The notes under the pieces are model-generated. The model saw only the letters and a program-made list of their open reading frames with translations, did not search any database and was not told the DNA's origin. Positions 5,139-24,102 of a DNA stretch of 24,102 nt are shown one piece after another. Where the stretch lies: positions 1 through 24,102 of the IMG/VR virus record IMGVR_UViG_3300001848_000627. The stretch is one strand, 5' to 3'. Each line of letters starts with the position of its first letter. Within the stretch, counting starts at the first letter, position 1. The stretch comes from a virus. The position numbers and the translations under genes were made by a program.

Positions 5139-5152
5139 GAATCTATCTATCC

Positions 5153-9301: not shown

Positions 9302-9304
9302 GAA

Positions 9305-9324
9305 ATAATCATTAAATAGATTAT
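9305..9324 (+). promoter_or_regulatory. AT-rich inverted repeat with TTAAATA loop between the two DUF4815 genes
   Basis: ATAATC (9305-9310) pairs with GATTAT (9319-9324) around the loop ATTAAATA. The loop shares its last six bases with the T4 late consensus TATAAATA. It ends 5 bases before the ATG at 9330. It could be a weak late promoter or a translational hairpin, but the stem is short and AT-rich, so the evidence is thin. Confidence 0.25.
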
Positions 9325-9329
9325 CATCA

Positions 9330-10874
9330 ATGAACGTTTTTAATCCTCTAGCACAAACATTTGCGGTCGATGCAAAGGGTGGTATTTTTGCCACATCGCT
9401 TGCAATATATTTTTCAGAAAAGGATGATACCGAGCCGGTAACCGTTCAATTGCGTACTGTTTTGAATGGAGTTCCTACTGCACAGATCATTCCATTTTCA
9501 GAAGTAACTGTTGAGAGTGCTGCTGTGTTGACATCTGCGGACTCTTCATTGCCCACAAACTTTACGTTTCAGGCACCAGTGTTTTTGCAGCAAGCAGTAG
9601 AGTATGCATTTGTGGTGCAATCTAATTCTGACAAGTATGCGCTTTGGGTGTCTGAAATCGGAGGTGTAGATTCATTGACGCCTTCATACACTATCACGAA
9701 GCAGCCAAGTTCAGGTGTTTTATTTAAGTCTTCAAACGGCACAACATGGTCGCCTGATCAAACAAAAGACATCAAGTTTGTGCTGCGCCGCGCAGCATTT
9801 GCTGAATCTGGTACCGCAGTATTCACAGAGGCATCTATTCCTCCGGTATCACTTGATTCTGATCCGCTGTATACCACATCAGGATCAAAGATCATTCGCG
9901 TCTATCATCCAAATCATGGCCACTTTGCGGGATCATCTCAGGTCACGATTTCGGGAATTACTTCTGTGGGCGTGAACGGAATTCCTGCCGCTGAGGTCAA
10001 TACCACATTTACTGTGCTTTCTGTTGAGCAGGATTGGTACACAATTCAGGTAAGCACTACAAATGCTACATCTACTGGTCGCAGCGGTGGCACAGATGTC
10101 ACTGCTACAGAAAATCGTCCGTTCGATGTGGTCTCACCTCTTGTTACTCAGATCGTCACTCCGGATGTTACTGCTGATTGGACAGCACGTATGACAACGG
10201 GCGCATCTTTAGCTGGTACCGAGCAGCCTCATGTCGTGGAAGATTATGTTCCGCTGAAGGTAAACGATAATAACTATCTGAAGCGCCCTCATGTGATTGT
10301 TTCTGATCCAAATCGCACATTGCTCACAAGTGGTGATAGAAGCTTCACGTTGAATTCTGACTTTTCGACATATCGCAACAACCTTTCACCTGCAATCGAT
10401 TTGGCTAGATTGTCAGTAGCCACAATTGCAAATCGTATCGATAATCCCTCTGCCACACTGCAGTCCGGATATAATCAGGTTGCTAATTACGTTCCTGAAA
10501 CTGCGTCACACTTCAGCTCTGCGCTGTCAAAGTACATCACCAAGAAGATCGACCTGAACGATCCTGCATCCGCGATCTCAGTGTATGTTAGCGTGAATCG
10601 TCCAACCGGATCAGATCTGCTGCTTTATTACAAAGTACAACCTAAGGGATCTGATACTAACTTCGATGATACTGGCTGGTCATTAGCATCGCCTGCATCA
10701 ACTATTCCAGTCACAGATGATCCTAATAACTACACAGAGATTCAATACAGCATCGATGAAACGATGCTGGGCAATGTGCAATTCTCTTCGTTTGCAATCA
10801 AGCTGGTATTTGTCTCGGAAAACTCCTCTGCTGTTGCTACCTGCAAGAACTTCCGCGCAATTGCTGTTACTTAA
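9330..10874 (+). CDS. DUF4815-type virion protein, C-terminal domains as a separate gene
   Basis: A 514-residue virion protein. It opens with NPLAQTFAVDAKGGIFATSL, then YFSEKDDTEPVTVQLRTVLN, AVEYAFVVQSNSDKYALWVS, and a VYHPNHGHFAGSSQVTISG segment near residue 190. In relatives I recall, these stretches form the C-terminal part of the DUF4815 chain. The start is ATG at 9330, only three residues ahead of the conserved block, and the frame differs from that of the upstream gene. It probably assembles with the product of 5153-9301 to rebuild the complete fold at the baseplate/fibre junction. No Shine-Dalgarno sequence is visible; a short inverted repeat lies just upstream. The split could be natural fission or an old frameshift with new flanking sequence. 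Confidence 0.7.
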   Translation: MNVFNPLAQTFAVDAKGGIFATSLAIYFSEKDDTEPVTVQLRTVLNGVPTAQIIPFSEVTVESAAVLTSADSSLPTNFTFQAPVFLQQAVEYAFVVQSNSDKYALWVSEIGGVDSLTPSYTITKQPSSGVLFKSSNGTTWSPDQTKDIKFVLRRAAFAESGTAVFTEASIPPVSLDSDPLYTTSGSKIIRVYHPNHGHFAGSSQVTISGITSVGVNGIPAAEVNTTFTVLSVEQDWYTIQVSTTNATSTGRSGGTDVTATENRPFDVVSPLVTQIVTPDVTADWTARMTTGASLAGTEQPHVVEDYVPLKVNDNNYLKRPHVIVSDPNRTLLTSGDRSFTLNSDFSTYRNNLSPAIDLARLSVATIANRIDNPSATLQSGYNQVANYVPETASHFSSALSKYITKKIDLNDPASAISVYVSVNRPTGSDLLLYYKVQPKGSDTNFDDTGWSLASPASTIPVTDDPNNYTEIQYSIDETMLGNVQFSSFAIKLVFVSENSSAVATCKNFRAIAVT

Positions 10875-10879
10875 CATAT

Positions 10880-11092
10880 ATGGCCATAGGACGTGCTACA
10901 GTTCGTAATATACCCTCTCTTGAGCGAGATCTTTCATCTCAGGCCATCATAAATAGAAACCAAACAGATTATCAACGACGCCTTGCTCAGAAACAGTTTA
11001 CCTCTGCAAAGGAACAAGAAATCGAAGATCTGAAGTCAGAAGTCTCTCAGCTTAAAGAACTTGTCAATCAGCTAATTTCCGCAAAAACTTAA
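10880..11092 (+). CDS. Small coiled-coil protein between virion genes
   Basis: A 70-residue protein of unknown function. The first half is basic and Gln/Arg-rich (LERDLSSQAIINRNQ, YQRRLAQKQF). Residues about 42-68 form a clear heptad pattern (KEQEIEDLKSEVSQLKELVN, with Ile/Leu/Val at a and d positions), predicting an oligomeric coiled coil. It starts five bases after the previous stop and ends one base before the long-fibre start, so it is probably cotranslated with both. It could be a fibre-assembly helper or a trimeric connector. I cannot assign it to a named family. Confidence 0.6.
   Translation: MAIGRATVRNIPSLERDLSSQAIINRNQTDYQRRLAQKQFTSAKEQEIEDLKSEVSQLKELVNQLISAKT
10948..10955 (+). promoter_or_regulatory. 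Weak late-promoter-like octamer (CATAAATA)
   Basis: One mismatch to TATAAATA, inside the 70-residue gene and 138 bases before the long-fibre start. It could give extra late transcription of the fibre gene. A single mismatch in coding DNA is weak evidence. Confidence 0.15.
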
Positions 11093-11093
11093 A

Positions 11094-14000
11094 ATGGCTA
11101 CCACAGTCCTACGTACCGCTACCTTTGAACAGTGGCGCACAGCAACCAATCAAATCTCCACTGATCTGGGTACTGTCGCTAGCCTGACAACTACCGACAA
11201 GAGCAGTGCTGTTAATGCCATCAACGAGCTAAAATCACGCACAATCTATATTGGTACAACAGGAATCGTTACCGACAGATCTTCAGGCAATCAGGCGCTG
11301 ACGGGTATTTCGAGTGTCACACTTCCGGGTAGCACAAGTGGAACAGTACAGATCATTCCGGTTGCGGCGGCAGGAACGACTGTTCTTACCGCACCAGCAA
11401 CAAGTGGAACAATTATTACCACGGGCGATATTGGCACAGTGACAAACACGATGCTGGCAGGTAGCATCGCAAACAGCAAGCTTGCTAACAGCACAATCTC
11501 CGGCGTCTCGCTGGGCAGCAACCTGAACGCACTGACGCTGGGTGACGGCCTAGATGGCACGTCATACAACGGTACTGCAGGAATTACTGCTGCAGTTGGA
11601 GCATCAATTGCCCGCCGCGCAGATACTCAATATATTGGTACGACTGCAGTAACATTGAATCGTGCATCTGCTAATCTGCCACTGACAGGAATTGCTTCTG
11701 TTGCGCTTCCTGGTAGTACAAGCGGCACGATCACGCTGCAGCCTGCTGCGATTGCTGGAACGACCACACTGACACTTCCTTCTGGAACAGGCACGATTCT
11801 GTCTGATCAAAGTGCCATCAACGGATCACAGCTTGTGGCAGGATCGGTGGCAAATGCCAAACTATCATCGAGCTCACTGACTGTCGGCTCTACGTCAATT
11901 TCTTTGGGTAGTACATCTACCACTCTTGCAGGTCTGACATCAGTAACATCAATTGCATTTACTGGTGCGCTGACAGGAAACGCATCAACTGCAACCACTC
12001 TACAAACATCACGCAACATCAATGGCGTGGCGTTCAACGGGTCTGCTGACATCACAATCGCTGCTGCTACGCCAAATGCGTTGACAGCCGGCAGTGGCAT
12101 TCAGCTCAATTCAGGCACGACATTCGATGGATCCGCAGCAAAGACAATTTCTGTTGACTCGTCTGTTGCTCTTCGAGCAGATACTCATTACATCGGCACG
12201 ACTGGAGTCACGCTGAATCGTGCATCTGCTAACCTAGCGTTGTCTGGTATTTCAAGCGTTACTCTTCCAGGCAGCACAAGTGGTACTGTTCAGATTGTTC
12301 CAAGTGCTGTTGCTGGCACTGGCACGATTTTGACGTTGCCTGCTACATCAGGCACTGTTCTAACTACAGCAAGTGGTATCGACGGCGCTCAGCTGAATAC
12401 TACATCAGTTGCTAATGCTAAACTTGCTAACAGCAGCGTTACTCTGGGCACAACGAACGTTGCGCTGGGAGCAACTGCTACCACGCTGGCCGGACTGACA
12501 TCCGTTACTTCTACTGGATTTACTGGTGCACTGACAGGAAATGTTACCGGTAACGTGAGCGGAAATGCAGGAACAGTGACTAATGGCGTCTATACCACAG
12601 ACACTGGTACCGTTACCAACACGATGCTGGCAGGAAGCATTGCAAACGGAAAACTTGCTAATAGCAGCATCACATTGGGAACAACAGCTGTTGCGCTAGG
12701 TGCTACAGCAACCACATTGACTGGTCTGACATCGGTCACATCTACAGGATTCACTGGTGCACTGACGGGTAATGCATCTACTGCTACCACGCTGCAAACA
12801 AGCAGAAATATCAACGGCGTGGCATTTAATGGATCTGCTGACATTACAGTTACTGCAAATACTACAAACGCACTGACTGTTGGTACTGGTCTAGCACTTG
12901 ATTCTGGCACGGCATTCAATGGATCTGCAGCACGCACGCTGACTAATACTGGTGTCACATCCCTTGCTGGTACTGCTAACCGCATTACTGTATCTGGATC
13001 AACCGGTGCGGTAACACTGAATCTGCCACAGGACATTGCCACGACTTCATCGCCTACATTTGCGGGCGAGACACTTACTGGTGCAATCGCGCAGAACGTC
13101 AACATTGCAGATGCATCGAAGTCAAATGTCTACACGCTGACGAATTCTAATGCGAATTACACAGCAAATCCAACGCGCTTTGCAATGGATTCTGCAGGCA
13201 ATGTCATAATCACTGGAAATTTGACAGTCAGTGGAACAACCACTCTTACTGCTACCACATATTCACCTGATTGGACAACAGTTAGTAACAAGCAATACTA
13301 CGGTCAGATCAAGGATGGAACGACGACAGCAATCGCAGCCACGAACATTGCAAACGGCGATGCTATCTGGTTCCGCGGATCGAACGGTGTTACTATCGCT
13401 GTTGGATCAAACGATGTGACATACGGTGACAATGTTCTGATCAGCCTGTCTGGTGTTCCAAATACATCACTTGCTAATTCTACGATCACGATTGCAGGAA
13501 CATCGACCGCGCTAGGTGGCTCAATCGCGCTTGATACGATCACCGGTCTATCTGCCACAGGCATCGTCAAGCGCACTGCCGCAAATACACTTGCCACCGC
13601 AACTGCGGGCACAGATTACGTCATCCCTTCTGGAAACATCACTGGATCTGCTGGATCTGTAGCAAATGCACTGACGATTGGAACAGGACTTTCTGGCGGA
13701 TCATATAACGGATCTGCTGGTGTTACGATTGCGAACACGGGCGTCCTTGCTCTGACACAGGGTGGAGGTATTGCAATCACTGGAACAAATGCTAATCTGA
13801 CAGTCACGCACGGTGCTACTTCGTCTGTTACTAGCCTGACATCTGCTGCTAATACCTTCATTACTGCACAGACTTACGATGCGTACGGCCATGTTACTGC
13901 TCGCACTGCTGCCGCTGTTGACTTTACTGTTTCTGCTAACTATGCATTTGCAAACATCGTTGTCGGTGCAGATTCTGGATATACCTGGGGAACGATCAAT

Positions 14001-16223
14001 GCTACCACGACTCAGGCTGCTGATAACAGCTCTGACACGATCACGATTGTCCCAGGTACCACGGCTGGTGTCAATGGCATCGATATTCAGGGAAGTACCG
14101 ATGCAATCAATGACGCACTGAGAATTTCACATAGTAAAACGTCTTCTCTTTCTGGCACATATGGTGGTAATGGTATCGCATCGATCACTGTCGATGGAAT
14201 GGGCCATGTCACAGCAGTCGGTACAGCAACATATTTGACATCTTCGACAGGCGTAGCAAGTTTGGCTGGTACAGCAAATCAGGTCATTGTTTCTGGATCG
14301 ACTGGAGCAGTCACTTTGTCATTGCCGCAAAGCATTGCAACAACTAGCAATGTCACATTCAATGCACTGACAACTAACGCAGATGTGATTGTTGGAGGCA
14401 ATCTGACGGTCAACGGTACTACAACCACTGTCAATTCGACCACGCTGGACGTCGTTGATCTCAATATTACTGTGGGTAAAAATGCAGTGACTGCAGCTGC
14501 ATCCGATGGTGCTGGTTTGACAGTCGGTAATTATGCAGGCAATCCTACGCTGCTGTACGTCAATGCTTCAAACCGCTGGGTGATGAATCGCGGCGTGGAA
14601 GGATCATCATTTGTTCGTACTGGTGGAACATCGAGCCAATTCCTGAAGGCCGATGGATCAGTTGATTCTACTTCGTATCAGGTTGCTGGATCATACGCCA
14701 CAGCTACACAAGGTACTAAAGCCGATAATGTGGGCGCAGTGAATGGTATCATCAAGTCTAACGGATCTGCCACATTCAGTGCTGCTGTTGCTGGTACCGA
14801 CTATGTCATTCCATCGGGTAGTATTACCGGATCTGCTGGATCTGTTGCAAATGCTCTGACTATTGGCACTGGTCTGAGCGGCACATCATATAACGGATCT
14901 TCTGCTGTTACGATCTCGATTCCGACATCTGGTGTTGCTGCTGGAACTTACAACAATGTCACTGTAAACGACAGAGGCATCGTTACTGCTGGATCTAATG
15001 TTTCGTATCTGACAGCTGAAAGTGACACGCTTGCCACTGTTACAGCTCGCGGCGCGACTACAACTGTAGCAATTACTACGACAGGATTCATCAAGTCAGG
15101 TGGAACATCTAGCCAATTCCTGAAAGCTGACGGATCAGTCGATTCAAATACTTACCTGACATCAGTGGGCAATGGAGCGTTTGGTGTAAGTATTGGAGTT
15201 GCTGGTGCTACAAACACGACTGTAACCTGGGGAACATCGTCAGGATTTACTGCTAATGCTGCATCTGCTTCTACGTATGATCTGAAAGTTGGTCCTGCAC
15301 TTACAGGTCTGGCAGCGCAAATGACTGGAGCAGGAAGCGGATTCCTGAAGAAGACTGCTGCTGACACATATTCGCTAGACACGAGCACATATCTGACTTC
15401 CGCTGTCACAAGTGCTGCTGCTGGAACTGGCATATCTGTTTCTGCAGCAACAGGTGCTGTGACTATCACAAATACCGGTGTCACCTCACTCAATCTTGGC
15501 GTGATTACTGGTGGTGGATCAGGATTTACTTCTGTTGGAAGTCTGACTGGTTCAGTGAATATGCAGTTCTCGAATCCGCTAACTGCTAGCCTCACGACGC
15601 CAAATGCGCTTGCAGTGGATCTGATGACGCAGTCTGGATTGACTGCTGGTACTTATAACAACGTTACTGTTAGTAGCAAGGGTATTGTTACTGCAGCATC
15701 GAATGTTTCGTATCTGACATCTGCAGTCACGAGCCTGACTGGCACATCGAATCAGGTCATTGCTTCTGCATCGACAGGATCTGTCACGTTGTCGCTGCCA
15801 CAAAGCATCAATACTGGCGCATCGGTTCAGTTCGGATCGCTAGGCATCGGCACCGCAGCATCTGGCGTGACCGGTGAAATTCGCGCTACAGACAACATCA
15901 CTGCGTACTACACCTCTGATGAACGCCTCAAGACAAACGTCACAAAAATCGAGAATGCTCTGGAAAAGGTATCTCAGATCGATGGCGTGATCTACGACTG
16001 GAACGAGGTCTACAAGGAAAAGCACGGTGGCGTGGATGGATTCTTCGTCCGTGAGCAGAATTCCGGCGTCATTGCTCAGCAGGTCGAAAAGGTGTTTCCA
16101 AATGTGGTCGGCGAACGTGGCGATGGCTACAAGGCAGTTCGTTATGAACTCCTGGTTCCTCTGCTGATCGAGGCAATCAAGGATCTGAAGGCAGAAGTCG
16201 AGGCACTCAAAGCACAGAAATAA
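11094..16223 (+). CDS. Long tail fibre with C-terminal S74 chaperone/peptidase domain
   Basis: A 1709-residue fibre. The N-terminal region includes LTTTDKSSAVNAINELKSRT, a motif common near the base of phage fibres. Residues about 45-1590 are Gly/Ser/Thr/Ala-rich repeats with few charges. They include two copies of a long module (RADT-QYIGTT, LNRASANL, LPGSTSGT, TLQTSRNINGVAFNGSADIT), three copies of a GTANQV-SGSTGAVTLSLPQ unit, and two of GGTSSQFLKADGSVDS. Residues about 1607-1709 form an S74 domain: the TSDERLKTN signature with the Ser1608-Asp1609 pair expected at the self-cleavage site, then GVIAQQVEKVFPNVV, and a C-terminal coiled coil (LLIEAIKDLKAEVEALKAQK). In this family the domain trimerises the fibre and then cuts itself off. 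The start one base after the preceding stop implies coupled translation. Confidence 0.88.
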   Translation: MATTVLRTATFEQWRTATNQISTDLGTVASLTTTDKSSAVNAINELKSRTIYIGTTGIVTDRSSGNQALTGISSVTLPGSTSGTVQIIPVAAAGTTVLTAPATSGTIITTGDIGTVTNTMLAGSIANSKLANSTISGVSLGSNLNALTLGDGLDGTSYNGTAGITAAVGASIARRADTQYIGTTAVTLNRASANLPLTGIASVALPGSTSGTITLQPAAIAGTTTLTLPSGTGTILSDQSAINGSQLVAGSVANAKLSSSSLTVGSTSISLGSTSTTLAGLTSVTSIAFTGALTGNASTATTLQTSRNINGVAFNGSADITIAAATPNALTAGSGIQLNSGTTFDGSAAKTISVDSSVALRADTHYIGTTGVTLNRASANLALSGISSVTLPGSTSGTVQIVPSAVAGTGTILTLPATSGTVLTTASGIDGAQLNTTSVANAKLANSSVTLGTTNVALGATATTLAGLTSVTSTGFTGALTGNVTGNVSGNAGTVTNGVYTTDTGTVTNTMLAGSIANGKLANSSITLGTTAVALGATATTLTGLTSVTSTGFTGALTGNASTATTLQTSRNINGVAFNGSADITVTANTTNALTVGTGLALDSGTAFNGSAARTLTNTGVTSLAGTANRITVSGSTGAVTLNLPQDIATTSSPTFAGETLTGAIAQNVNIADASKSNVYTLTNSNANYTANPTRFAMDSAGNVIITGNLTVSGTTTLTATTYSPDWTTVSNKQYYGQIKDGTTTAIAATNIANGDAIWFRGSNGVTIAVGSNDVTYGDNVLISLSGVPNTSLANSTITIAGTSTALGGSIALDTITGLSATGIVKRTAANTLATATAGTDYVIPSGNITGSAGSVANALTIGTGLSGGSYNGSAGVTIANTGVLALTQGGGIAITGTNANLTVTHGATSSVTSLTSAANTFITAQTYDAYGHVTARTAAAVDFTVSANYAFANIVVGADSGYTWGTINATTTQAADNSSDTITIVPGTTAGVNGIDIQGSTDAINDALRISHSKTSSLSGTYGGNGIASITVDGMGHVTAVGTATYLTSSTGVASLAGTANQVIVSGSTGAVTLSLPQSIATTSNVTFNALTTNADVIVGGNLTVNGTTTTVNSTTLDVVDLNITVGKNAVTAAASDGAGLTVGNYAGNPTLLYVNASNRWVMNRGVEGSSFVRTGGTSSQFLKADGSVDSTSYQVAGSYATATQGTKADNVGAVNGIIKSNGSATFSAAVAGTDYVIPSGSITGSAGSVANALTIGTGLSGTSYNGSSAVTISIPTSGVAAGTYNNVTVNDRGIVTAGSNVSYLTAESDTLATVTARGATTTVAITTTGFIKSGGTSSQFLKADGSVDSNTYLTSVGNGAFGVSIGVAGATNTTVTWGTSSGFTANAASASTYDLKVGPALTGLAAQMTGAGSGFLKKTAADTYSLDTSTYLTSAVTSAAAGTGISVSAATGAVTITNTGVTSLNLGVITGGGSGFTSVGSLTGSVNMQFSNPLTASLTTPNALAVDLMTQSGLTAGTYNNVTVSSKGIVTAASNVSYLTSAVTSLTGTSNQVIASASTGSVTLSLPQSINTGASVQFGSLGIGTAASGVTGEIRATDNITAYYTSDERLKTNVTKIENALEKVSQIDGVIYDWNEVYKEKHGGVDGFFVREQNSGVIAQQVEKVFPNVVGERGDGYKAVRYELLVPLLIEAIKDLKAEVEALKAQK
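11976..12060 (+). repeat. Fibre module copy A (NASTATTLQTSRNINGV)
   Basis: First copy of a roughly 28-codon unit GNASTATTLQTSRNINGV followed by AFNGSADIT. Further copies lie at about 12768-12850 in the same gene and 21839-21925 in the last fibre gene. The repeats are close at protein level and diverged at synonymous positions. Confidence 0.7.
12768..12852 (+). repeat. Fibre module copy B
   Basis: Second copy of the GNASTATTLQTSRNINGV unit, about 790 bases after copy A. It belongs to a larger duplicated block that also includes the VALGATATTL and FTGALTGN segments. Confidence 0.7.
15912..16220 (+). other. S74 intramolecular chaperone domain of the long fibre
   Basis: Residues about 1607-1709. 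The Ser-Asp pair of TSDERLK lies at 15915-15920. Known S74 domains cleave immediately before this Ser after folding the upstream beta-helix, so the mature fibre would end near residue 1607. Neither the 558-residue fibre nor the visible part of the last fibre shows this domain. Confidence 0.8.
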
Positions 16224-16236
16224 TCTGCCAGTTGAC

Positions 16237-16257
16237 GAGAGGCTCAACCTCTCCTTT
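16237..16257 (+). terminator. Intergenic hairpin, possible weak terminator
   Basis: GAGAGG (16237-16242) pairs with CCTCTC (16248-16253) across the five-base loop CTCAA, followed by CTTTATAT and the next ATG at 16263. The stem is only six pairs and the T tract is broken, so it would at most attenuate. It could instead mark an RNA end or structure the next gene's start. Confidence 0.4.
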
Positions 16258-16262
16258 ATATC

Positions 16263-17249
16263 ATGGACAACTTTGCCAAGTATGCTCTCGCGGCCGGAGG
16301 AACAATCCGGCCGCTGATCATTCCTGCTGCTCTGACTGGCGGGACAGGTCTGATGAATCCCAGCATCTTCAATGATAACGGAAAAATCATTGCTGTAGTG
16401 CGCCATGTGAACTATACCTTCTATCACTCTGAGAAGAAGATATTTCTGCATCCCTGGGGTCCGCTGACATACCTGCATCCAGAGAACGACCTGCACCTGC
16501 GGACGCGCAATTTCTACTGCGAGCTGAATGACGCACTGGAGATCACGCTGCATAAAGAGATCGATATGTCTCATGGAGACAGTCAATACACTCCAGTCTG
16601 GGAATTCCGTGGATTAGAGGATGCACGCATATTTCGATGGGATGGAAAGCTGTTCATCTCAGGCGTGCGGCGCGATGTGAAACCAAACGGCGAGGGGCGA
16701 ATGGAACTATGCGAGATCGACAGTGATGCTAAAGAGATCTCGCGGTTTCGCATTCCTCCGCCAAATGATCCCAATAGCTACTGTGAAAAGAATTGGATGC
16801 CGGTCATCGATATGCCTTACCACTACGTCAAGTGGACAGCGCCGACAGAATTAGTACACGTGGATCCTAGCAGACAGTCCTGTGCTACAGTAAAGCTTGT
16901 GGACAACAATCCGAGCATTCGGCGTGACATTCGTGGCGGTACTCAGATCATTCCAATTGGTAAAGGTCTGCGAATGGCTATGACTCATGAGGTCGATCTG
17001 TTCAAGTCAGAGGTAGGGCGCAAAGATGCTGTCTATCATCATCGGTTTGTAGTCTGGGATCAGGATTGGAATATCGTCAAGTTCAGCAAAGAATTCTGGA
17101 TGATGGACGGGCAAGTCGAATTTGGCGTGGGAATGTGTGCGGACAATGATCCAAAGAACTTACTGATCACCTTTGGATTTCAGGACAATGCTGCTTTTGT
17201 TCTGCGCGTTCCTTTACAAGCAGTGCTGAACTCCATCGATGCGCCATGA
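16263..17249 (+). CDS. Glycosidase-like five-bladed beta-propeller protein
   Basis: A 328-residue soluble protein with no signal peptide or membrane segment. Motifs spread along it fit the GH130/GH43-like five-bladed propeller superfamily: MNPSIFNDNGKIIAVVRHVN near residue 31, FRGLEDARIFRWDGKLFISG near residue 116 (compare the G-L-E-D-P-R blade motif), CEKNWMPVIDMPYHYVKWT near residue 173, and RGGTQIIPIGKGLRMAMTHE near residue 224. Members act on or bind mannosyl and related sugars; the actual substrate cannot be read here. It sits between two fibre loci and its stop overlaps the start of the TPR-like gene (ATGA), so the two products probably work together. Possible roles are processing host surface glycan, binding it, or maturing virion sugars. 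An enzyme is not proven, because the catalytic acids cannot be placed without a structure-based alignment. Confidence 0.6.
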   Translation: MDNFAKYALAAGGTIRPLIIPAALTGGTGLMNPSIFNDNGKIIAVVRHVNYTFYHSEKKIFLHPWGPLTYLHPENDLHLRTRNFYCELNDALEITLHKEIDMSHGDSQYTPVWEFRGLEDARIFRWDGKLFISGVRRDVKPNGEGRMELCEIDSDAKEISRFRIPPPNDPNSYCEKNWMPVIDMPYHYVKWTAPTELVHVDPSRQSCATVKLVDNNPSIRRDIRGGTQIIPIGKGLRMAMTHEVDLFKSEVGRKDAVYHHRFVVWDQDWNIVKFSKEFWMMDGQVEFGVGMCADNDPKNLLITFGFQDNAAFVLRVPLQAVLNSIDAP

Positions 17250-17833
17250 GACTGCATTCGCTACTAGTAACCTACATCGATGACCCGTCTGATCCGATTG
17301 CGAATATGCGGCTGGCACTGGAGTATGATTCGATGGGTCAGCTTGCTTCCGCGGTGTCATTTTACATCCGCGCCGCAGAAAGAAGCAACGATGCCACCCT
17401 ACAGTATACCGCTCTGATCAGAGCAAGCATGTGCTTTGACAAGCTTGGAACGCGCGGATTGTCTGTTCGCGGATTGCTAAACCAAGCAATTACTATACTG
17501 CCAAAACGCCCCGAGGCGCACTTTCTGCTGGCACGCTGGCACGAACGCGAACAGCAGGTTGAAAGCTGGGTGAACTGCTACACTGCAGCAAGCATGGCGC
17601 TAGACATATGCGACTTCTCGGTTGAACCTCTGAGCACACCAGTTGATTATCCTGGGCGATGGGGACTGCTATTCGAGAAAGCAGTATCTGCATGGTGGGT
17701 TGGATTGTGCGATGAGTCATACTTAATCTTCAAGGATCTGCAGCAGAACTATCCTATGGACGCGCCACATCATCAGGCAGTGCTCAATAACCTAGCTATG
17801 ATGGAATCTGCTCGGACACTACCGTATAAATAG
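17246..17833 (+). CDS. TPR-like helical protein coupled to the propeller gene
   Basis: A 195-residue all-helical protein. Successive helix pairs carry TPR-type spacing: NMRLALEYDSMGQLASAVSF then YIRAAERS, LLNQAITILPKRPEAHFLLA then RWHEREQQ, and GLLFEKAVSAWWVGLCDESY then LIFKDLQQNYP. The opening LLVTYIDDPSDP and the PKRPEAHFLLARWHE stretch resemble a TPR domain found in cyanophage and pelagiphage glycan-related proteins, in some of which I recall it next to glycosyltransferase domains. No glycosyltransferase domain is present here. The start ATG (17246-17248) overlaps the upstream TGA, indicating coupled translation. It is probably a scaffold or partner for the propeller protein. Its last codons contain a late promoter sequence for the next cassette. 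Confidence 0.65.
   Translation: MRLHSLLVTYIDDPSDPIANMRLALEYDSMGQLASAVSFYIRAAERSNDATLQYTALIRASMCFDKLGTRGLSVRGLLNQAITILPKRPEAHFLLARWHEREQQVESWVNCYTAASMALDICDFSVEPLSTPVDYPGRWGLLFEKAVSAWWVGLCDESYLIFKDLQQNYPMDAPHHQAVLNNLAMMESARTLPYK
17825..17832 (+). promoter_or_regulatory. T4-type late promoter (TATAAATA)
   Basis: An exact consensus match overlapping the stop of the TPR-like gene (TAT AAA TAG) and followed by ATG at 17846. With the usual T4 spacing, transcription would start near 17838, leaving a leader of only about eight bases. It would drive the cassette from 17846 to at least 20115. Confidence 0.65.
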
Positions 17834-17845
17834 TTAATCTCCAAT

Positions 17846-18184
17846 ATGGCTGTATATGCTAACATTCCCATCGATCAGGGATCAGACTTTGCCTCAGAAG
17901 TAACAGTTGAAGGCTCGGATGGCATCGTCTTTAATCTCACTGGTTATACGGCCAGAGGACAGATTCGAAAGACGTACACCTCGACATCTAAGATCTCTTT
18001 CACCACTCTAATCAATAATCCATCAGCGGGAAAGATCATGATTTCTCTACCAGCTGCGACTACTGCGTCAATGAAACCCGGCCGGTATGTCTATGATATC
18101 GAGGTAGTTCAGACTGGCACCGGCAAAGTTACTCGTGTCGTTGAAGGACAAGTCGAGGTCAATCCTAGAGTAACACGTCTATGA
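17846..18184 (+). CDS. Small virion protein with immunoglobulin-like (BppU-like) fold
   Basis: A 112-residue all-beta protein. It has IPIDQGSDFASEVTV, then FNLTGYTARGQIRKTYTS, SAGKIMISLPAATTASMKPG, and RYVYDIEVVQ with TRVVEGQVEVNPRVT at the end. This pattern is a familiar small protein of T4-like cyanophages and resembles the N-terminal Ig-like domain of BppU-type baseplate proteins. It probably attaches fibres or decorates the distal tail. It is the first gene after the late promoter at 17825, and its stop overlaps the next start (ATGA at 18181-18184). Confidence 0.65.
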   Translation: MAVYANIPIDQGSDFASEVTVEGSDGIVFNLTGYTARGQIRKTYTSTSKISFTTLINNPSAGKIMISLPAATTASMKPGRYVYDIEVVQTGTGKVTRVVEGQVEVNPRVTRL

Positions 18185-18426
18185 GCGGAATATCCGGCGC
18201 AATCTTTCAGACACCGTCAATCAAAGCTGCGCTGAGCAATGTCTCATCTGTTCAGGCACGCACAGTTGCTGTTGGCGCTGGAAAGTCATTAGCAGATCTT
18301 TCCGATGTCGACCTTTCTGCTGTCGCAGACGGATCAGTGCTAGTCTATAACGGAACGACCGGAAAATTTGTGGCCACTCGAGAGGTGGATAACCGAAACT
18401 TAAAAATCATCGGCGGAGCATTCTAA
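18181..18426 (+). CDS. Short fibre-connector-like protein
   Basis: An 81-residue protein translationally coupled to the Ig-like gene. The second half reads SLADLSDVDLSAVADGSVLV then YNGTTGKFVATREVDN, ending in KIIGGAF. The LSDVD - DGSVLVYN - KFVAT - GG-x-F pattern is a fibre-associated module I recognise from T4-like phages. The same terminal GG-x-F ends the next gene (IDGGTF). It is probably a small structural adaptor for the following fibre. No enzymatic motif is seen. Confidence 0.6.
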   Translation: MSGISGAIFQTPSIKAALSNVSSVQARTVAVGAGKSLADLSDVDLSAVADGSVLVYNGTTGKFVATREVDNRNLKIIGGAF

Positions 18427-18438
18427 TAACGTACTACC

Positions 18439-20115
18439 ATGGCAGGAACAATCATCAAAACCCGTTACAGTGATGTCACGAACCAACCGGCTCCTGACGC
18501 ACTAGTCCACGCCGAGCAAGCATATTCGTTCGCGTCAAACCGCCTGTTTATCGGTAAGCTAGGAGGCGCTACAGTCGATCCGATCATCATCGGTGGTAAA
18601 TACTACACCGATATGCTGAATCAGACGCGCGGCGTGCTGACGGCAAATTCCGCGATTCTGGTAGACTCAAACCAGTGGGTCGATCATCTGATTGCCGGAT
18701 CGCTGCAGCTGACAACATCTGGTGGTGGCGGGCAGGTCGTTTCCTCGATTGTCACAAGCCTGAGCGGCACACCAACTGACGGGCAGCTGATCACCGCGGC
18801 AGGTGCTAAGACATACATCGATACTCGTCTGGCCGCATATAGCATCAACGATCTGGCAGACGTCGCCATCACGTCTCCTGCGAATGCACACATGCTCATC
18901 TATGATGGCACTGCTGCAGAATGGAGAAATTTTGCGCTGTCTGGATCGCTGACCACCACAAAGACAGGTGTGGTCACGTTGTCATCTACAGGAGTAACTG
19001 CAGGACAGTATGGAAGTCAGACTGCAATTCCAGTCATCACTGTTACCGCTGAAGGACGCATTTCAGCACTGTCGACTGTCACGATTGCGACCACGCTGAA
19101 CATTGCTGGCGATACTGGTACTGATGGTGTATCGTTGCTCAATGACACACTGACATTCGTTGGTGGAGCAGGAATTACCTCGACAGTCACGAATAATACT
19201 GTCACTCTGGATGTAGACAACACTGTCGCTAGAAGCACAAGTGATCTGAGTTACTTCAGTGCCACGACATCTGCTCAACTCGCATCTGTCATCACTGACG
19301 AGACTGGCACTGGATATCTGGTATTTGGCACAAGCCCGAATTTCACCACGTCTATCACCACATCAAGCAACTCGTTTGATGTCTTCAATGCGAACGCCAC
19401 GACGGTCAATGCATTTGGCGCGGCTACCACGCTGCAATTTGGAGCGACGACAGGAACGACTACTGTTCGGAACAGCCTGGTTGTTGGCGGCAATCTGACT
19501 GTTCAGGGAATCGTCACCTCAGTCAACAGCACAACGACCACGCTGACAGATCCTGTCATCATGCTGGCACAGGACTCTGTTGCTGCGGGCGATGCAAATG
19601 ACCGCGGTGTCCGATTCAATTGGGGCAACGGTACCAGCGTGGTCACCGGATTCTTCGGTATGGATATGCAGACTGGACGATTTGTCTTCAAGTCGTCTGG
19701 CGCTGAATCAAACACCGAGAATTACTCTGCTCCTTGGAGCGATGCTCAGTTCGGCGAGATCTATGGCACAGGTGGTACATTCGGTAATGTCACCGTTGGC
19801 GTAGCTACTGACAACAAGATCACCACGACAAGTGGCACGTTGGTCATTGATGCCGCAAACAACACTGTTCAGATCGATGCAGATGCCAGCGTCACTGGCA
19901 CGTTCGGTGTTACCGGTACTGTTACTCTGACATCTGGTCTGGCTGTTTCATCCGGCGGTACTGGTGTCCAATCCTTCACGGGTAAGGCAGTTGCTGTCAC
20001 GAATACCGGTGGAACTGCTCTGGCATTCATCACCGGATCACAATACCAGCTGATTCAGTTCGATTCATCGGGCACGCCTATCGCATCAGCCACAATCGAC
20101 GGCGGCACATTCTAA
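18439..20115 (+). CDS. Tail fibre protein (558 residues)
   Basis: A beta-rich Gly/Ser/Thr protein. An N-terminal adaptor of about 80 residues (IIKTRYSDVTNQPAPDALVH, then FASNRLFIGKLGG) is followed by a LADVAI - LIYDGTAAEWRN module at about 140-170. Next comes an AFGAATTLQFGATTGTTTVR unit near 330, and at about 371-420 a conserved block DPVIMLAQDSVAAGDANDRG then VRFNWGNG and FFGMDMQTGRFVFKS. The C-terminus SATIDGGTF matches the GG-x-F ending of the preceding gene. No S74 domain is present. It probably forms a short fibre or a fibre base with the two small proteins upstream, in a cassette headed by the 17825 promoter and closed by the terminator at 20143. The start is ATG at 18439, 12 bases after the connector gene. 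Confidence 0.75.
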   Translation: MAGTIIKTRYSDVTNQPAPDALVHAEQAYSFASNRLFIGKLGGATVDPIIIGGKYYTDMLNQTRGVLTANSAILVDSNQWVDHLIAGSLQLTTSGGGGQVVSSIVTSLSGTPTDGQLITAAGAKTYIDTRLAAYSINDLADVAITSPANAHMLIYDGTAAEWRNFALSGSLTTTKTGVVTLSSTGVTAGQYGSQTAIPVITVTAEGRISALSTVTIATTLNIAGDTGTDGVSLLNDTLTFVGGAGITSTVTNNTVTLDVDNTVARSTSDLSYFSATTSAQLASVITDETGTGYLVFGTSPNFTTSITTSSNSFDVFNANATTVNAFGAATTLQFGATTGTTTVRNSLVVGGNLTVQGIVTSVNSTTTTLTDPVIMLAQDSVAAGDANDRGVRFNWGNGTSVVTGFFGMDMQTGRFVFKSSGAESNTENYSAPWSDAQFGEIYGTGGTFGNVTVGVATDNKITTTSGTLVIDAANNTVQIDADASVTGTFGVTGTVTLTSGLAVSSGGTGVQSFTGKAVAVTNTGGTALAFITGSQYQLIQFDSSGTPIASATIDGGTF

Positions 20116-20131
20116 GGCTAATTTAATAAGT

Positions 20132-20139
20132 TATAAATA
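20132..20139 (+). promoter_or_regulatory. T4-type late promoter (TATAAATA)
   Basis: An exact consensus match in the 97-base intergenic region before the last fibre. Expected transcription start is near 20145, which falls in the left arm of the terminator hairpin. The resulting leader would be about 68 bases and begin with that hairpin. Confidence 0.65.
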
Positions 20140-20142
20140 GAT

Positions 20143-20176
20143 GGGTCTGAGTTTTTACTCAGGCCCTTTCTGTTTT
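20143..20176 (+). terminator. Rho-independent terminator
   Basis: GGGTCTGAG (20143-20151) pairs with CTCAGGCCC (20158-20166) in nine pairs including one G-U, around the loop TTTTTA. It is followed by TTTCTGTTTTT (20167-20177). It closes the 17846-20115 cassette. This is the only strong intrinsic terminator I saw in the window. Confidence 0.75.
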
Positions 20177-20205
20177 TACAGGTCGGATTCTCGAGTTTTT
20201 ACTCA
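20149..20205 (+). repeat. Direct repeat of GAGTTTTTACTCA in the leader of the last fibre
   Basis: The 13-base sequence GAGTTTTTACTCA occurs at 20149-20161 (inside the terminator hairpin) and again at 20193-20205, eight bases before the ATG at 20213. Each copy has self-complementary ends (GAG/CTC). The second could sequester or position the start region. Confidence 0.6.
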
Positions 20206-20212
20206 CTAAACC

Positions 20213-23200
20213 ATGGGCAACAATATTCTTCTCAAGAAATCGTCAGTCACGGGCAAAGTACCACTGACGACAGATCTGCAGTACGGTGAAGTCGCAATCA
20301 ACTACGCAGATGGCAAGCTGTATTATAAGACAAATAGCGCGACAGTCGATGTCCTGAATCCGACCGAGTCGAACAACTTTCAGACGATTGCAGTATCTGG
20401 GCAGTCGAGCATCGTTGCTGGATCAGCAACTGCTACTGTCAACTTCTCGCCTTCGGTAGGTCTGGACATCACCACGAATGCGGGTACCAATACCGTCACC
20501 TTTGCTCACAGCGATACCAGCAGCGTGGGCAACATCAATTCTGACAATGGCGCCGGAACTGTCATTCAGGATGTTGCGCTGACGTTCGATACATTTGGTC
20601 ACGTCACTGCAGCATCGGTGGGAACCGTCAATCTGGACAGCCGATATCTGCAGGCTGAGGTTGACACGCTGAATACTGTCACCACGCGCGGTGCAACTAC
20701 TACAAATGCTATTACTGTTGGTGGAATCACAGTGAATGGAGACGCATCGGTGACAGGTAGTTTGACTACAATCGATGCAGTCAATTTTCACACTACTGCT
20801 AGTGTAGCTGATGCATCCGCACGCTTGTTCTGGGATGCCACATTTGGCCTGCTGCGCGTTGGCACAGGCAGCGCAAACGTGTCCTTTGACCTGGGAATGA
20901 CGACTGTGGTGTATGCCACGAACGATGACTCTGTCAACATCACCAAAGGACAAGTGGTCTATCTTTCTGGCGCACAGGGTAACCGTCCCACAGTCAGACT
21001 GGCACTCAACACGTCTGACACGACATCCTCACGCACTCTGGGATTTGCTGCAGAAAACATCAACACCAATCAGGCTGGATACATCATCACCGGCGGAGTG
21101 ATTGAAGGCCTGTCACTGGGAGCATATACTCCAGGTGATGTGCTCTGGCTGGGATCTTCTGCTGGCACGTTCACGACCACAAAACCAGTAGCACCGTATC
21201 ATGGTGTATTTCTGGGGGTGGTGCAGCGCGCAAACAACGGCAACGGGCAGATCTACGTAAAGGTTCAGAACGGCTATGAGCTTGATGAGATCCATGATGT
21301 GCAGATCATCAGCAAGGCCGACAAGGACAGCCTGTTCTATGATTCTACAGCAGGTGTCTGGAAGAACTACACTCCAGCAAATGCGCGCACAAACCTGGGT
21401 CTGGGCACGATAGCCACACAGAATGCCAGCAGTGTGACTATCACTGGCGGAACGATCAACAGCACATCCGTAGGAGCTACCACGCCAAGCACCGGAGCAT
21501 TCACCACACTTTCCACGACTGGCAATGCCACGATTGGCGGCAATCTAATTGTTCAGGGCACTACCACGACCGTCAGCGCGACGAATCTGTCAATTTCAGA
21601 TAATTTGATTTATCTGAACAACGGCGCCACAAACACCAATCCTGACATTGGATTCGCAGCAAATTACAATGATGGAACATACCATCATACCGGTTTCTTC
21701 CGTGATGCCACCGATGGCTACTGGAAGGTGTTTCAGAATTATAGTCCTGAGCCGGATGCATCGCTCTACATTGATACTAGCGATGCTTCATTTCAGCTTG
21801 CAGACATTCAGGCTGCTAACTTTCGTGGTGCACTAGTAGGAAATGCTAGCACAGCAACCACACTGCAGACAGCGCGCACAATCAACGGTGTCTCGTTCAA
21901 TGGATCTGCGAACATCACGATCACCTCAAATACCACAAATGCTTTGACGCTGGGTGATGGATTGAGCGGCACAAGCTTCAATGGATCTGCTGCAGTCACT
22001 GCTGCTGTGGACAGCACAATTGCTCGTCGCGCGGATGTTCATTACATTGGCACCACATCGGTTGCGCTGAATCGTACTTCTGCTGCACTGGCACTGACAG
22101 GAATCAGCAGCGTGACAGCACCGACAGACCTGACTCTGAATACCGCGGTGACAGTGACATCCGGCGGAAATGTTGGTATCAATACTTCTAGCCCAAGCTA
22201 TAAACTTCATATCACACATGGCGGAAGCTCATATGGAGTGGGCGTAACAGATGGAACAACTGCTTCTGGCATATACAACGGAATTCCACTCGCAGGAATT
22301 ACTGGTGCATATTTTGGAACTATTAACGGTAACGATTGCGTATTTGGCGCAAGTGGTGGTGGCGCATATCTGATCGTAAAGTCCAGTGGCAATGTTGGTA
22401 TTGGAACAAGTAGTCCATCATATAAGCTTCAGGTAAATGGAACATTTAATAGCAATGCACTTTGGACAGATGGATCTGCTATCGCATATTGGGGTAACGG
22501 CTCGACCTCGGCCCCATCTGGTATACTAACGTGGGATACCCCATATGCTACTGTAGCTGCAGCATCTGGCAAGAAACTGTATTTGAGTGCTAATGGTGCT
22601 GGTAACCAGAATATCACTATCGATACCTCCGGAAATGTCGGTATCAACAATACCGCTCCAGCATATCGTCTCGATGTAGGAACTGCAGACAACGATGCGA
22701 TCCGCATTCGCAATTCATCTGGAACACAGTCGAACGGTATTGCTCTGGGCGTGGGCCAAAACAGCCCGTTCTTAGATCTGGTCAATGGCGTGGAGTTCAG
22801 AATCAAGGGCAATACCTACGCAAATCTGGGCACATGGAACTCAGGCAACAATACTAAGTTCATCATCGATGCTAGCGGAAATGTGGGCATTGGAACAGCA
22901 AGTCCAAACTTAAAATTGGATGTTCAAGGCGGAGGCGCCAGATTGCTACAAAATGGAGGAGTTGCTCTCAATTTTTCAAACAATTCAACTAGAAATTGGG
23001 ATATTGGTTTAGCTGCATCTACAGATGCTTTTTATATTAAAGATGTCGTTGCAAACTCAACAAGAGTTACAATTGATACTGGTGGTAATGTTGGTATTGG
23101 AACAACTAGCCCTGCAGCAAAATTGGATGTTTATGGAACAGTACATATCGGAGCTACTGCAAATACCAACGGCAGTGCAGTTAATATTGCACAGGGAAAT

Positions 23201-24102
23201 TATAACCAGGTAAATCTGACATATGCCGGTTACAGCGGTTGGGGATTGCTGATTGGTTATGGCGATGGTTCTGCAAGCGGCAGTTATCATGGTCTTAATA
23301 CTGCTGCAATTATTAATGTTAATGATGCGCCGCTGCATTTGGGCACGGGGAATGCACCTACATTAACATTGAGTGGCGGATATGCTGGTATTGGTACTAT
23401 AACTCCTTCTCAGACTCTGCACGTTGTCGGCAATGCACGAATCACTGGCGCGCTGTATGATAGCAGCAATTCGGCAGGCACATCTGGGCAGGTGCTGACA
23501 TCGACAGGGTCTGGCACAGCATGGAGCTCGGCTGGCGCATCAGTCAGTGGCTCAGGCACAACGAACTACATTGCTAAGTTCACGGGCAGCACTGTTCTGG
23601 GCAATTCACAGATCTTTGACAACGGAACAAATGTTGGTATTGGAACAAATAGTCCAGACGCACAATCCAGATTAACTGTTGCCGGTGTTGGCGGCATTAC
23701 CGTCACGGGAGATTATAGTGGAGTGCCAGCTGTTGCAGGATTGGCCTTAGATTATCACCCTGCAAATTCTGCCGCAAGAATCAGTGTTGCAGATGGTTCG
23801 TCTGGTTGGACAAAAAATCTATTACTGCAACCGTATGGCGGAAATCTTGGTGTTGGAACAACAAGTCCCGGCGAAAAACTTGAAGTTGCAGGAAATATAC
23901 TGTCGAAGTTTTCATCAACAGATAATAGCGGCTTTTTGCAATATAGCGGAAACACTCATATATTCAGTATTACCCGCCAAACAAACAGCGTAAGTTTGAG
24001 CGGATACGATGGTGTTGGTTTGGCGCCAAACGCAACAAGCGGTCCTTCTGCATCATATGCACTGTATGCAAAATCAAATGGTAATGTGGGTATCGGAACA
24101 AC
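20213..24102 (+). CDS. Long tail fibre with GNVGIGT-type repeats (3' partial)
   Basis: Open from ATG 20213 to the right edge: 1296 complete codons, no stop in the window. Residues 1-43 are a fibre-attachment module (ILLKKSSVTGKVPLTTDLQY, GEVAINYADGKLYYK). Residues about 226-357 are a conserved beta-domain widespread in phage fibres (NITKGQVVYLSGAQGN, TLGFAAENI, GVFLGVVQRANNGNGQIYVK, VQNGYEL). Residues about 440-520 carry a NLIVQGTTTTVS - NLIYLNNG - DIGFAANYNDG unit. At about 543-630 there is a module shared with the 11094 fibre. From residue 652 there are nine GNVGIGT-SP type repeats at 60-100 residue spacing. Such proteins usually end in an S74 or similar domain, which would lie beyond the window. 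Its own late promoter and terminator region precede it. The AUG in CCATGG lacks a Shine-Dalgarno sequence. Confidence 0.85.
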   Translation, partial: MGNNILLKKSSVTGKVPLTTDLQYGEVAINYADGKLYYKTNSATVDVLNPTESNNFQTIAVSGQSSIVAGSATATVNFSPSVGLDITTNAGTNTVTFAHSDTSSVGNINSDNGAGTVIQDVALTFDTFGHVTAASVGTVNLDSRYLQAEVDTLNTVTTRGATTTNAITVGGITVNGDASVTGSLTTIDAVNFHTTASVADASARLFWDATFGLLRVGTGSANVSFDLGMTTVVYATNDDSVNITKGQVVYLSGAQGNRPTVRLALNTSDTTSSRTLGFAAENINTNQAGYIITGGVIEGLSLGAYTPGDVLWLGSSAGTFTTTKPVAPYHGVFLGVVQRANNGNGQIYVKVQNGYELDEIHDVQIISKADKDSLFYDSTAGVWKNYTPANARTNLGLGTIATQNASSVTITGGTINSTSVGATTPSTGAFTTLSTTGNATIGGNLIVQGTTTTVSATNLSISDNLIYLNNGATNTNPDIGFAANYNDGTYHHTGFFRDATDGYWKVFQNYSPEPDASLYIDTSDASFQLADIQAANFRGALVGNASTATTLQTARTINGVSFNGSANITITSNTTNALTLGDGLSGTSFNGSAAVTAAVDSTIARRADVHYIGTTSVALNRTSAALALTGISSVTAPTDLTLNTAVTVTSGGNVGINTSSPSYKLHITHGGSSYGVGVTDGTTASGIYNGIPLAGITGAYFGTINGNDCVFGASGGGAYLIVKSSGNVGIGTSSPSYKLQVNGTFNSNALWTDGSAIAYWGNGSTSAPSGILTWDTPYATVAAASGKKLYLSANGAGNQNITIDTSGNVGINNTAPAYRLDVGTADNDAIRIRNSSGTQSNGIALGVGQNSPFLDLVNGVEFRIKGNTYANLGTWNSGNNTKFIIDASGNVGIGTASPNLKLDVQGGGARLLQNGGVALNFSNNSTRNWDIGLAASTDAFYIKDVVANSTRVTIDTGGNVGIGTTSPAAKLDVYGTVHIGATANTNGSAVNIAQGNYNQVNLTYAGYSGWGLLIGYGDGSASGSYHGLNTAAIINVNDAPLHLGTGNAPTLTLSGGYAGIGTITPSQTLHVVGNARITGALYDSSNSAGTSGQVLTSTGSGTAWSSAGASVSGSGTTNYIAKFTGSTVLGNSQIFDNGTNVGIGTNSPDAQSRLTVAGVGGITVTGDYSGVPAVAGLALDYHPANSAARISVADGSSGWTKNLLLQPYGGNLGVGTTSPGEKLEVAGNILSKFSSTDNSGFLQYSGNTHIFSITRQTNSVSLSGYDGVGLAPNATSGPSASYALYAKSNGNVGIGT
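21839..21925 (+). repeat. Fibre module copy C, shared with the 11094 fibre
   Basis: GNASTATTLQTARTINGV then SFNGSANIT matches copies A and B in the first long fibre. It is followed, as in that gene, by a NALTLGDGLSGTSFNGS stretch and RRADVHYIGTTSVALNRTSA. Confidence 0.65.
22166..24102 (+). repeat. Nine GNVGIGT-type tandem protein repeats
   Basis: Repeat cores start at 22166, 22388, 22631, 22877, 23084, 23378, 23624, 23840 and 24080, all in frame. The consensus is G-N-V-G-I-G-T-x-S-P followed by x-x-x-L-x-V, at intervals of 207-294 bases. The intervening sequences are unrelated to each other. This is a common architecture for host-range-variable fibres. The array continues past the window. 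Confidence 0.8.

Follow-up and report, generated by a model that had tools for sequence, protein, structure and literature searches.

The window, by which we mean the whole stretch of DNA analysed here, is a 24,102-nt fragment (IMG/VR record IMGVR_UViG_3300001848_000627, positions 1 to 24,102). By its Pfam and PHROGs matches, its gene content is that of the baseplate and fibre region of a T4-superfamily myovirus. The Pfam matches comprise the gp6 C-terminal domain, baseplate wedge, gp8 and DUF4815, and the PHROGs matches comprise L-shaped tail fibre assembly, virion structural and tail fibre proteins. The locus described here is a 97-nt spacer between two genes on the + strand. Upstream lies an ORF for a virion structural or fibre-like protein of 558 aa (18439–20115, PHROGs structural protein matches). 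Downstream, a tail-fibre gene begins at 20213 (PHROGs tail fiber matches on 20213–24100); its ORF meets no stop and continues past the end of the window at 24102. A megablast search with the window found no similar DNA in cultured phages, and blastn with E values up to 10 returned only short and unrelated cultured-phage matches. An Rfam match to MicC over 20106–20180 was below threshold (27.4 bits against a gathering score of 90, E 0.039) and was dismissed as chance.

The spacer carries an exact T4-type late promoter box, TATAAATA, at 20132–20139 on the + strand, corresponding to -13 to -6. Three exact copies of this octamer are present in the window, all on the + strand, with 0.59 expected; at least three were obtained in 2 of 100 shuffles. 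One-mismatch boxes were not in excess in the window (14 versus 14.1 expected). Another exact copy, at 17825–17832 (+), is located 13 nt 5' of the ATG at 17846, where a gene of 112 aa begins. It probably drives the upstream late unit, 17846–20115, and relatives retain TATAAATA 6–9 nt ahead of the start codon that matches this ATG. No sigma-70-like sites were listed near 20132 on the + strand, and the promoter there is of the late type.

The box is followed by a terminator-like hairpin at 20143–20166 (+), GGGTCTGAGTTTTTACTCAGGCCC, which starts 4 nt beyond the last A of TATAAATA; the outer AGA/UCU can pair as well. Its stem has 10 pairs counting G-U, six of them G-C, and closes on a UUUU loop. 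With a folding energy of -18.0 kcal/mol (z -5.7, none of 200 shuffles equally stable) it is the strongest terminator-like hairpin of the window. It begins 28 nt past the stop codon of the upstream ORF, and the stem ends 46 nt ahead of the fibre ATG. An imperfect U-tract, TTTCTGTTTTT, follows at 20167–20177 (+). The tract, TTTCTGTTTT, is flush with the stem yet interrupted, and the U-tracts of the relatives are interrupted too. The stable G+C-rich stem and the short loop of an intrinsic terminator are both present. Terminator-like sites as a class were not in excess in 4200–24102 (17 versus 13.9 expected). Since neither one-mismatch boxes nor terminator-like sites are in excess, the case rests on box and hairpin jointly. 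The first-pass annotation had placed TATAAATA at 20132 next to a terminator-like hairpin of nine pairs. The exact octamer, the hairpin and its coordinates were all recovered, while the stem has one pair more once G-U is counted.

Predicted start of transcription

As excerpts of PMC1524935 give it, TATAAATA covers -13 to -6 in T4 late promoters. By this geometry the predicted start (+1) falls on the third stem base, 20145 (+), and the 5' arm would straddle +1. The spacing between boxes and start codons was used as a second guide. For each TATAAATA site, the downstream ATG of an ORF of at least 70 aa was located; these counts include orthologues. Of 211 sites from 17 phage records, each a genome or a contig, 13 had the ATG exactly 5 nt past the box and none had it closer. 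The same limit was seen in the surroundings of the 112-aa gene at 17846 (80 loci), where 9 of 154 sites have the ATG at 5 nt, 20 at 6 nt and none at fewer than 5, and in a gp23 sample of 80 loci (35 of 192 sites at 5 nt, none closer). The cases with 5-nt spacing in HTVC008M are five different genes, and the three that were looked up are annotated in its record as CDS starts (6280, 7562 and 49760). If an ATG cannot precede the start of its transcript, transcription should begin at the latest at the sixth base past the box, which is 20145. The earlier prediction of a start near 20145, inside the hairpin, thus agrees with both the T4 box geometry and the codon spacing. The start is thus placed as far as codon spacing can place it, and the geometry of a start inside the stem is well supported by comparison. 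Such a spacing wall offers a way to read late starts in uncultivated T4-like phages from their sequences.

The minimum spacing is 6 nt in the window and G001–G005, compared with 13 nt in T4 and 20 nt in RB49. The larger minima of T4 and RB49 are expected if a leader with a ribosome-binding site is needed there. Across marine T4-like phages and the clade of the window, many TATAAATA boxes stand 5–7 nt 5' of an ATG and none at fewer than 5 (window 17825–17846, HTVC008M/L256 6267 and 7549, G001–G007). Spacings of 5–7 nt imply leaderless or near-leaderless late mRNAs, unlike those of T4 and RB49.

As a control for the meaning of the octamer, scrambled versions were compared. In the window and G001–G005, 17 of 30 TATAAATA sites lie within 25 nt of the ATG of an ORF of at least 70 aa, with spacings of 6–15 nt, while nine scrambled octamers gave 0–3 such sites each. 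By its placement, TATAAATA is the late promoter of this group and marks gene starts. A variant, AATAAATA, is also found near start codons (12 of 26 sites within 25 nt, in the same set) and may represent another form of late promoter; an A at -13 does occur in T4 late promoters, according to portions of PMC2988020. The same source, as excerpted, describes a preference of T4 late promoters for A/T just past the box, a tendency and no strict rule. The 20132 box is followed by GATGG, and the boxes of the relatives by GGTGG or GATGG, which is A/T-poorer than this tendency predicts. The promoter may for that reason be weak.

Conservation and folding of the stem

Relatives were collected as 15 loci from a search with the upstream protein, and L158 was added by a pattern search. 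In viral contigs, TATAAATAN{2,8}GGGNCTGAG matched 55 stretches. Four of the 15 loci (L004, L005, L006 and L015), plus L158, have TATAAATA directly followed by the hairpin in the same spacer. L006 and L015 are identical in the spacer, which leaves five distinct spacers including the window (six contigs), and box and hairpin are kept in all five. Nine loci (L007–L014 and L017) have another hairpin in a spacer that lacks TATAAATA. L016 carries TATAAATA about 12 nt ahead of a weak palindrome, and L018 stops short of a spacer. In four relatives the stem begins at or before the last A of the box, and about half of the 5' arm lies upstream of +1.

Third-position identity of the upstream gene is 37–46% between the window and the relatives and 45–61% among the distinct relatives. 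Weakly constrained sites are therefore largely randomised. Despite this divergence TATAAATAG, most of the stem and the 12-mer GAGTTTTTACTC are nearly unchanged. The stem was tested on a six-row alignment of 13 pairs (78 cells). Standard pairs fill 97.4% of the cells, compared with 31–45% when the partner was slid by 1–3 columns. Two pairs show two-sided changes, columns 52–78 (G-C to A-U, upstream of +1) and columns 57–74 (at about +1). The paired percentage or the covariation score was matched by 12 of 500 shuffles, and the number of two-sided pairs by 253 of 500. With five distinct spacers only, the paired changes back the stem in a supportive, not a conclusive, manner. An RNA started at the box's own +1 lacks the 5' side of the pair upstream of +1, so the conservation of this pair favours the read-through RNA as the target of selection. 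This agrees with the first-pass idea of one hairpin with two readings.

Folding was then compared for the two predicted transcripts. The spacer of the read-through RNA folds at -25.7 kcal/mol in G001, -21.8 in G006, -24.4 in G003, -26.8 in G002 and -23.6 in the window. The corresponding values for the own RNA, starting at the sixth base past the box, are -7.0, -6.2, -7.3, -7.3 and -14.2 kcal/mol. Part of the window value of -14.2 comes from a further small hairpin; the first hairpin by itself reaches -11.0, compared with -18.0 for the full hairpin over the same stretch. The own-promoter RNA is predicted to retain 6–8 pairs at its 5' end, while the read-through RNA would have the full stem. The gap between stem and U-tract in the own RNA is about six unpaired bases in the relatives and 2 nt in the window. 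By geometry, the predicted escape of the own transcript is clear in the relatives, and weaker and perhaps incomplete in the window. The predicted loss is large in the relatives (-6 to -7 versus -22 to -27 kcal/mol) and smaller in the window (-11.0 versus -18.0 kcal/mol, gap of 2 nt), which makes the first-pass view that the own hairpin could not work as a normal terminator no more than plausible.

With moderate confidence we propose that the hairpin terminates transcripts from upstream, while those from its own late promoter partly or wholly escape. The composite element would end one late unit (promoter at 17825, genes to 20115) and start the next, with the fibre gene at 20213. A polymerase arriving from upstream would transcribe the full hairpin and terminate in the U-tract. 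A polymerase with the phage late sigma factor would start at about 20145 in the 5' arm and make an RNA without the outer arm. The hairpin of this RNA would be shorter and weaker and would no longer abut the U-tract, so that the polymerase would read on. The fibre mRNA would carry the leftover short hairpin at its very 5' end and may be protected by it. If this is true, a span of about 45 bases is enough for the phage to insulate neighbouring late genes and to start transcription anew, and the start site decides whether the hairpin acts as a terminator.

The repeated 12-mer and nested boxes at other loci

The hairpin tip is formed by the 12-mer GAGTTTTTACTC (20149–20160, +). This copy is identical in four of the five distinct spacers; G001 has GGGTTTTTACTC, with one change. 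A second copy at 20193–20204 (+), 8 nt 5' of the fibre ATG and with the potential for a 4-pair hairpin, is identical in all five and stands 2–8 nt ahead of the ATG across them. The hairpin might therefore be mainly a regulatory RNA or DNA element, with the tip GAGUUUUUACUC at the 5' end and before the ATG serving as a protein operator or ribosome-access switch, and with termination secondary. We regard this as possible, though doubtful. Consistent with it, the five distinct spacers hold ten copies of the 12-mer, of which 9 are exact while the remaining spacer varies, and within the window and G001–G005 the 12-mer is confined to the 20132 locus. It is also found 5 nt 5' of the ATG in L032 (9420–9437), a distant fibre homologue whose spacer has neither TATAAATA nor the promoter-hairpin composite. 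The same 12-mer, however, caps strong terminator-like hairpins, GGGGGAGTTTTTACTCCCC with a T-run, soon after gp23 in L354 (near 6492) and L400 (near 2991), and may be just a good tip. The predicted leader folds also speak against a switch, as they differ among the five spacers: separate tip hairpins form in the window, G002 and G003, and long-range pairing in G001 and G006. GAGTTTTTACTC may serve as an RNA signal or be a tip that terminators favour, and the unlike folds keep us from committing to an operator role. The pair of 12-mers is present in L159 too, in another setting.

The frequency of such nesting was examined with 1604 terminator-like hairpins from 17 records and 73 further T4-like loci. 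A box was called nested if the 5' arm of the hairpin starts between 7 nt before and 5 nt after the last A of TATAAATA, or if the box lies in the loop. Within 60 nt of a hairpin, 39 TATAAATA sites were found: 8 at the 5' arm, 2 in the loop, 2 upstream and 27 after the hairpin. Twelve control octamers (n = 152) gave 19, 6, 62 and 65, respectively. Five of the eight 5'-arm cases are the 20132 locus. Besides it there are five nested T4-like loci, three at the 5' arm (G001:10239, G007:76912 and P-SSM4 172828) and two in the loop (Melnitz 76334, which is L310 16334, and one in G008). The nested box of G007:76912 precedes a tail-fibre ORF. At P-SSM4 172828 a second box lies 5 nt 5' of an ATG and may be the real promoter of that locus. 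In Melnitz, TATAAATA stands in a terminator-like loop between tRNA-Leu and a gp5-type gene, and transcription is predicted to begin where the 3' arm does, at its first base. P-SSM4 and Melnitz are both cultured phages, the latter with a methylotroph host. G001:10239 (L224) is a second nested late promoter in this relative, with TATAAATA followed immediately by an 11–14 pair hairpin and a T-run; its locus has one relative besides itself, L409, in which TATAAATA is absent on the strand examined. Under the scan criteria no nested cases were found in T4 or RB49.

With orthologues counted once, 6 boxes are nested and 2 upstream, versus 25 and 62 for the controls (p = 0.014). A separate gp23 sample (n = 40) had 0 nested, 2 upstream and 38 after the hairpin, with controls (n = 80) at 10, 25 and 45. 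A search for gp23 in the fragments G001, G002, G004, G006 and G007 did not find it. After pooling, again with orthologues counted once, the excess of nested boxes over controls has p = 0.07, and the upstream position is taken by 4 of 79 TATAAATA sites versus 87 of 232 controls. These positions argue strongly that late promoters avoid the upstream side of terminator-like hairpins. A start inside the hairpin evades this constraint, and nesting is, by the same counts, a rare way to stay close without being upstream of the terminator. A general rule that a late promoter is followed by a hairpin was rejected (across T4-like loci a hairpin came just after 7 of 148 TATAAATA versus 62 of 976 control sites; 0 of 40 nested in the gp23 sample).

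A broader proposal is that some T4-like phages have self-blind terminators, in which a late promoter in the 5' arm or loop of an intrinsic terminator makes the hairpin stop all but its own transcript, and that here the leftover hairpin and its exact twin 5' of the ATG act together as an RNA operator with two sites, which would control tail-fibre output. We consider this combined version rather unlikely.

The same scan bears on a simpler explanation, an ordinary terminator with a chance-abutting box, in which the overlap follows simply from a short, compact spacer and shortening of the hairpin is without effect. Nested geometry is indeed rare, with none in the 40 cases of the gp23 sample, and most promoters come after the terminator (27 of 39 in the scan, 38 of 40 in the gp23 sample); the paired stem changes, too, are compatible with a plain terminator. 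Against chance, however, all five distinct spacers have the overlap although third positions have diverged strongly, and an own RNA that starts within the stem is bound to form a different hairpin. We judge this explanation improbable, if not markedly so. Less probable still is the suggestion of the first-pass annotation that the hairpin was selected as a stabiliser of the mRNA 5' end. In its favour, for each of the five distinct spacers the own RNA is predicted to open with a stem that starts at +1 or +2, but the nested cases of G007, Melnitz and G008 are predicted to leave their own RNA without such a 5' hairpin. Protection of the 5' end would thus not be the general purpose of the nested geometry. 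Very improbable is that TATAAATA at 20132 is no promoter and only the A-tract part of a two-way terminator (AAATAG...CTATTT): the AAT/AAAT of the box does pair with the U-tract side in relatives, but the full octamer is kept in all five spacers, including its first TAT, which stays unpaired, and the octamer marks gene starts in the clade of the window.

Comparison with known systems

Among titles and the opening lines of abstracts, in a literature without most subscription journals, a late promoter nested in a terminator was not found. Termination by the hairpin together with escape of its own transcript, the reading we favour, can be set beside two known types of element. PeSL cassettes of T4-like phages, which are said to have been described by Arbiol in 2010 and Comeau in 2014, join an early (host-like, sigma-70) promoter to a stem-loop and have been linked to gene shuffling. 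Excerpts of PMC4503421 present the PeSL (promoter early stem-loop) as a composite promoter-terminator motif of T4-like phages. The element of the window is likewise a compact composite of stem-loop and promoter. It differs from a PeSL in that its promoter is a late one, located between virion genes, and not early.

The second comparison is with T4 gene e. According to portions of PMC3014915, inhibitory hairpins are found at the start regions of T4 e, soc, 49 and I-TevI, and a late promoter of gene e lies within the sequence of the 5' strand of its hairpin. As described there, long transcripts of gene e form the hairpin, while late ones are made without its 5' portion. In another case from the same source, the start region of a T4-like virion gene keeps a small conserved stem; the potential stem of the second GAGTTTTTACTC copy would resemble it, although gene and sequence differ. 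By its geometry the predicted late start in the window also falls within the 5' strand of a hairpin. The gene e hairpin, as portrayed in these portions, hides the gene's own ribosome-binding site, whereas the stem of the window ends 46 nt before the ATG. Unlike the gene e hairpin described there, that of the window has the anatomy of a terminator, with a U-tract and a position 28 nt past the upstream stop. If the proposed mechanism is true, the logic of gene e, in which a start inside the hairpin removes its effect, would extend from translation to termination.
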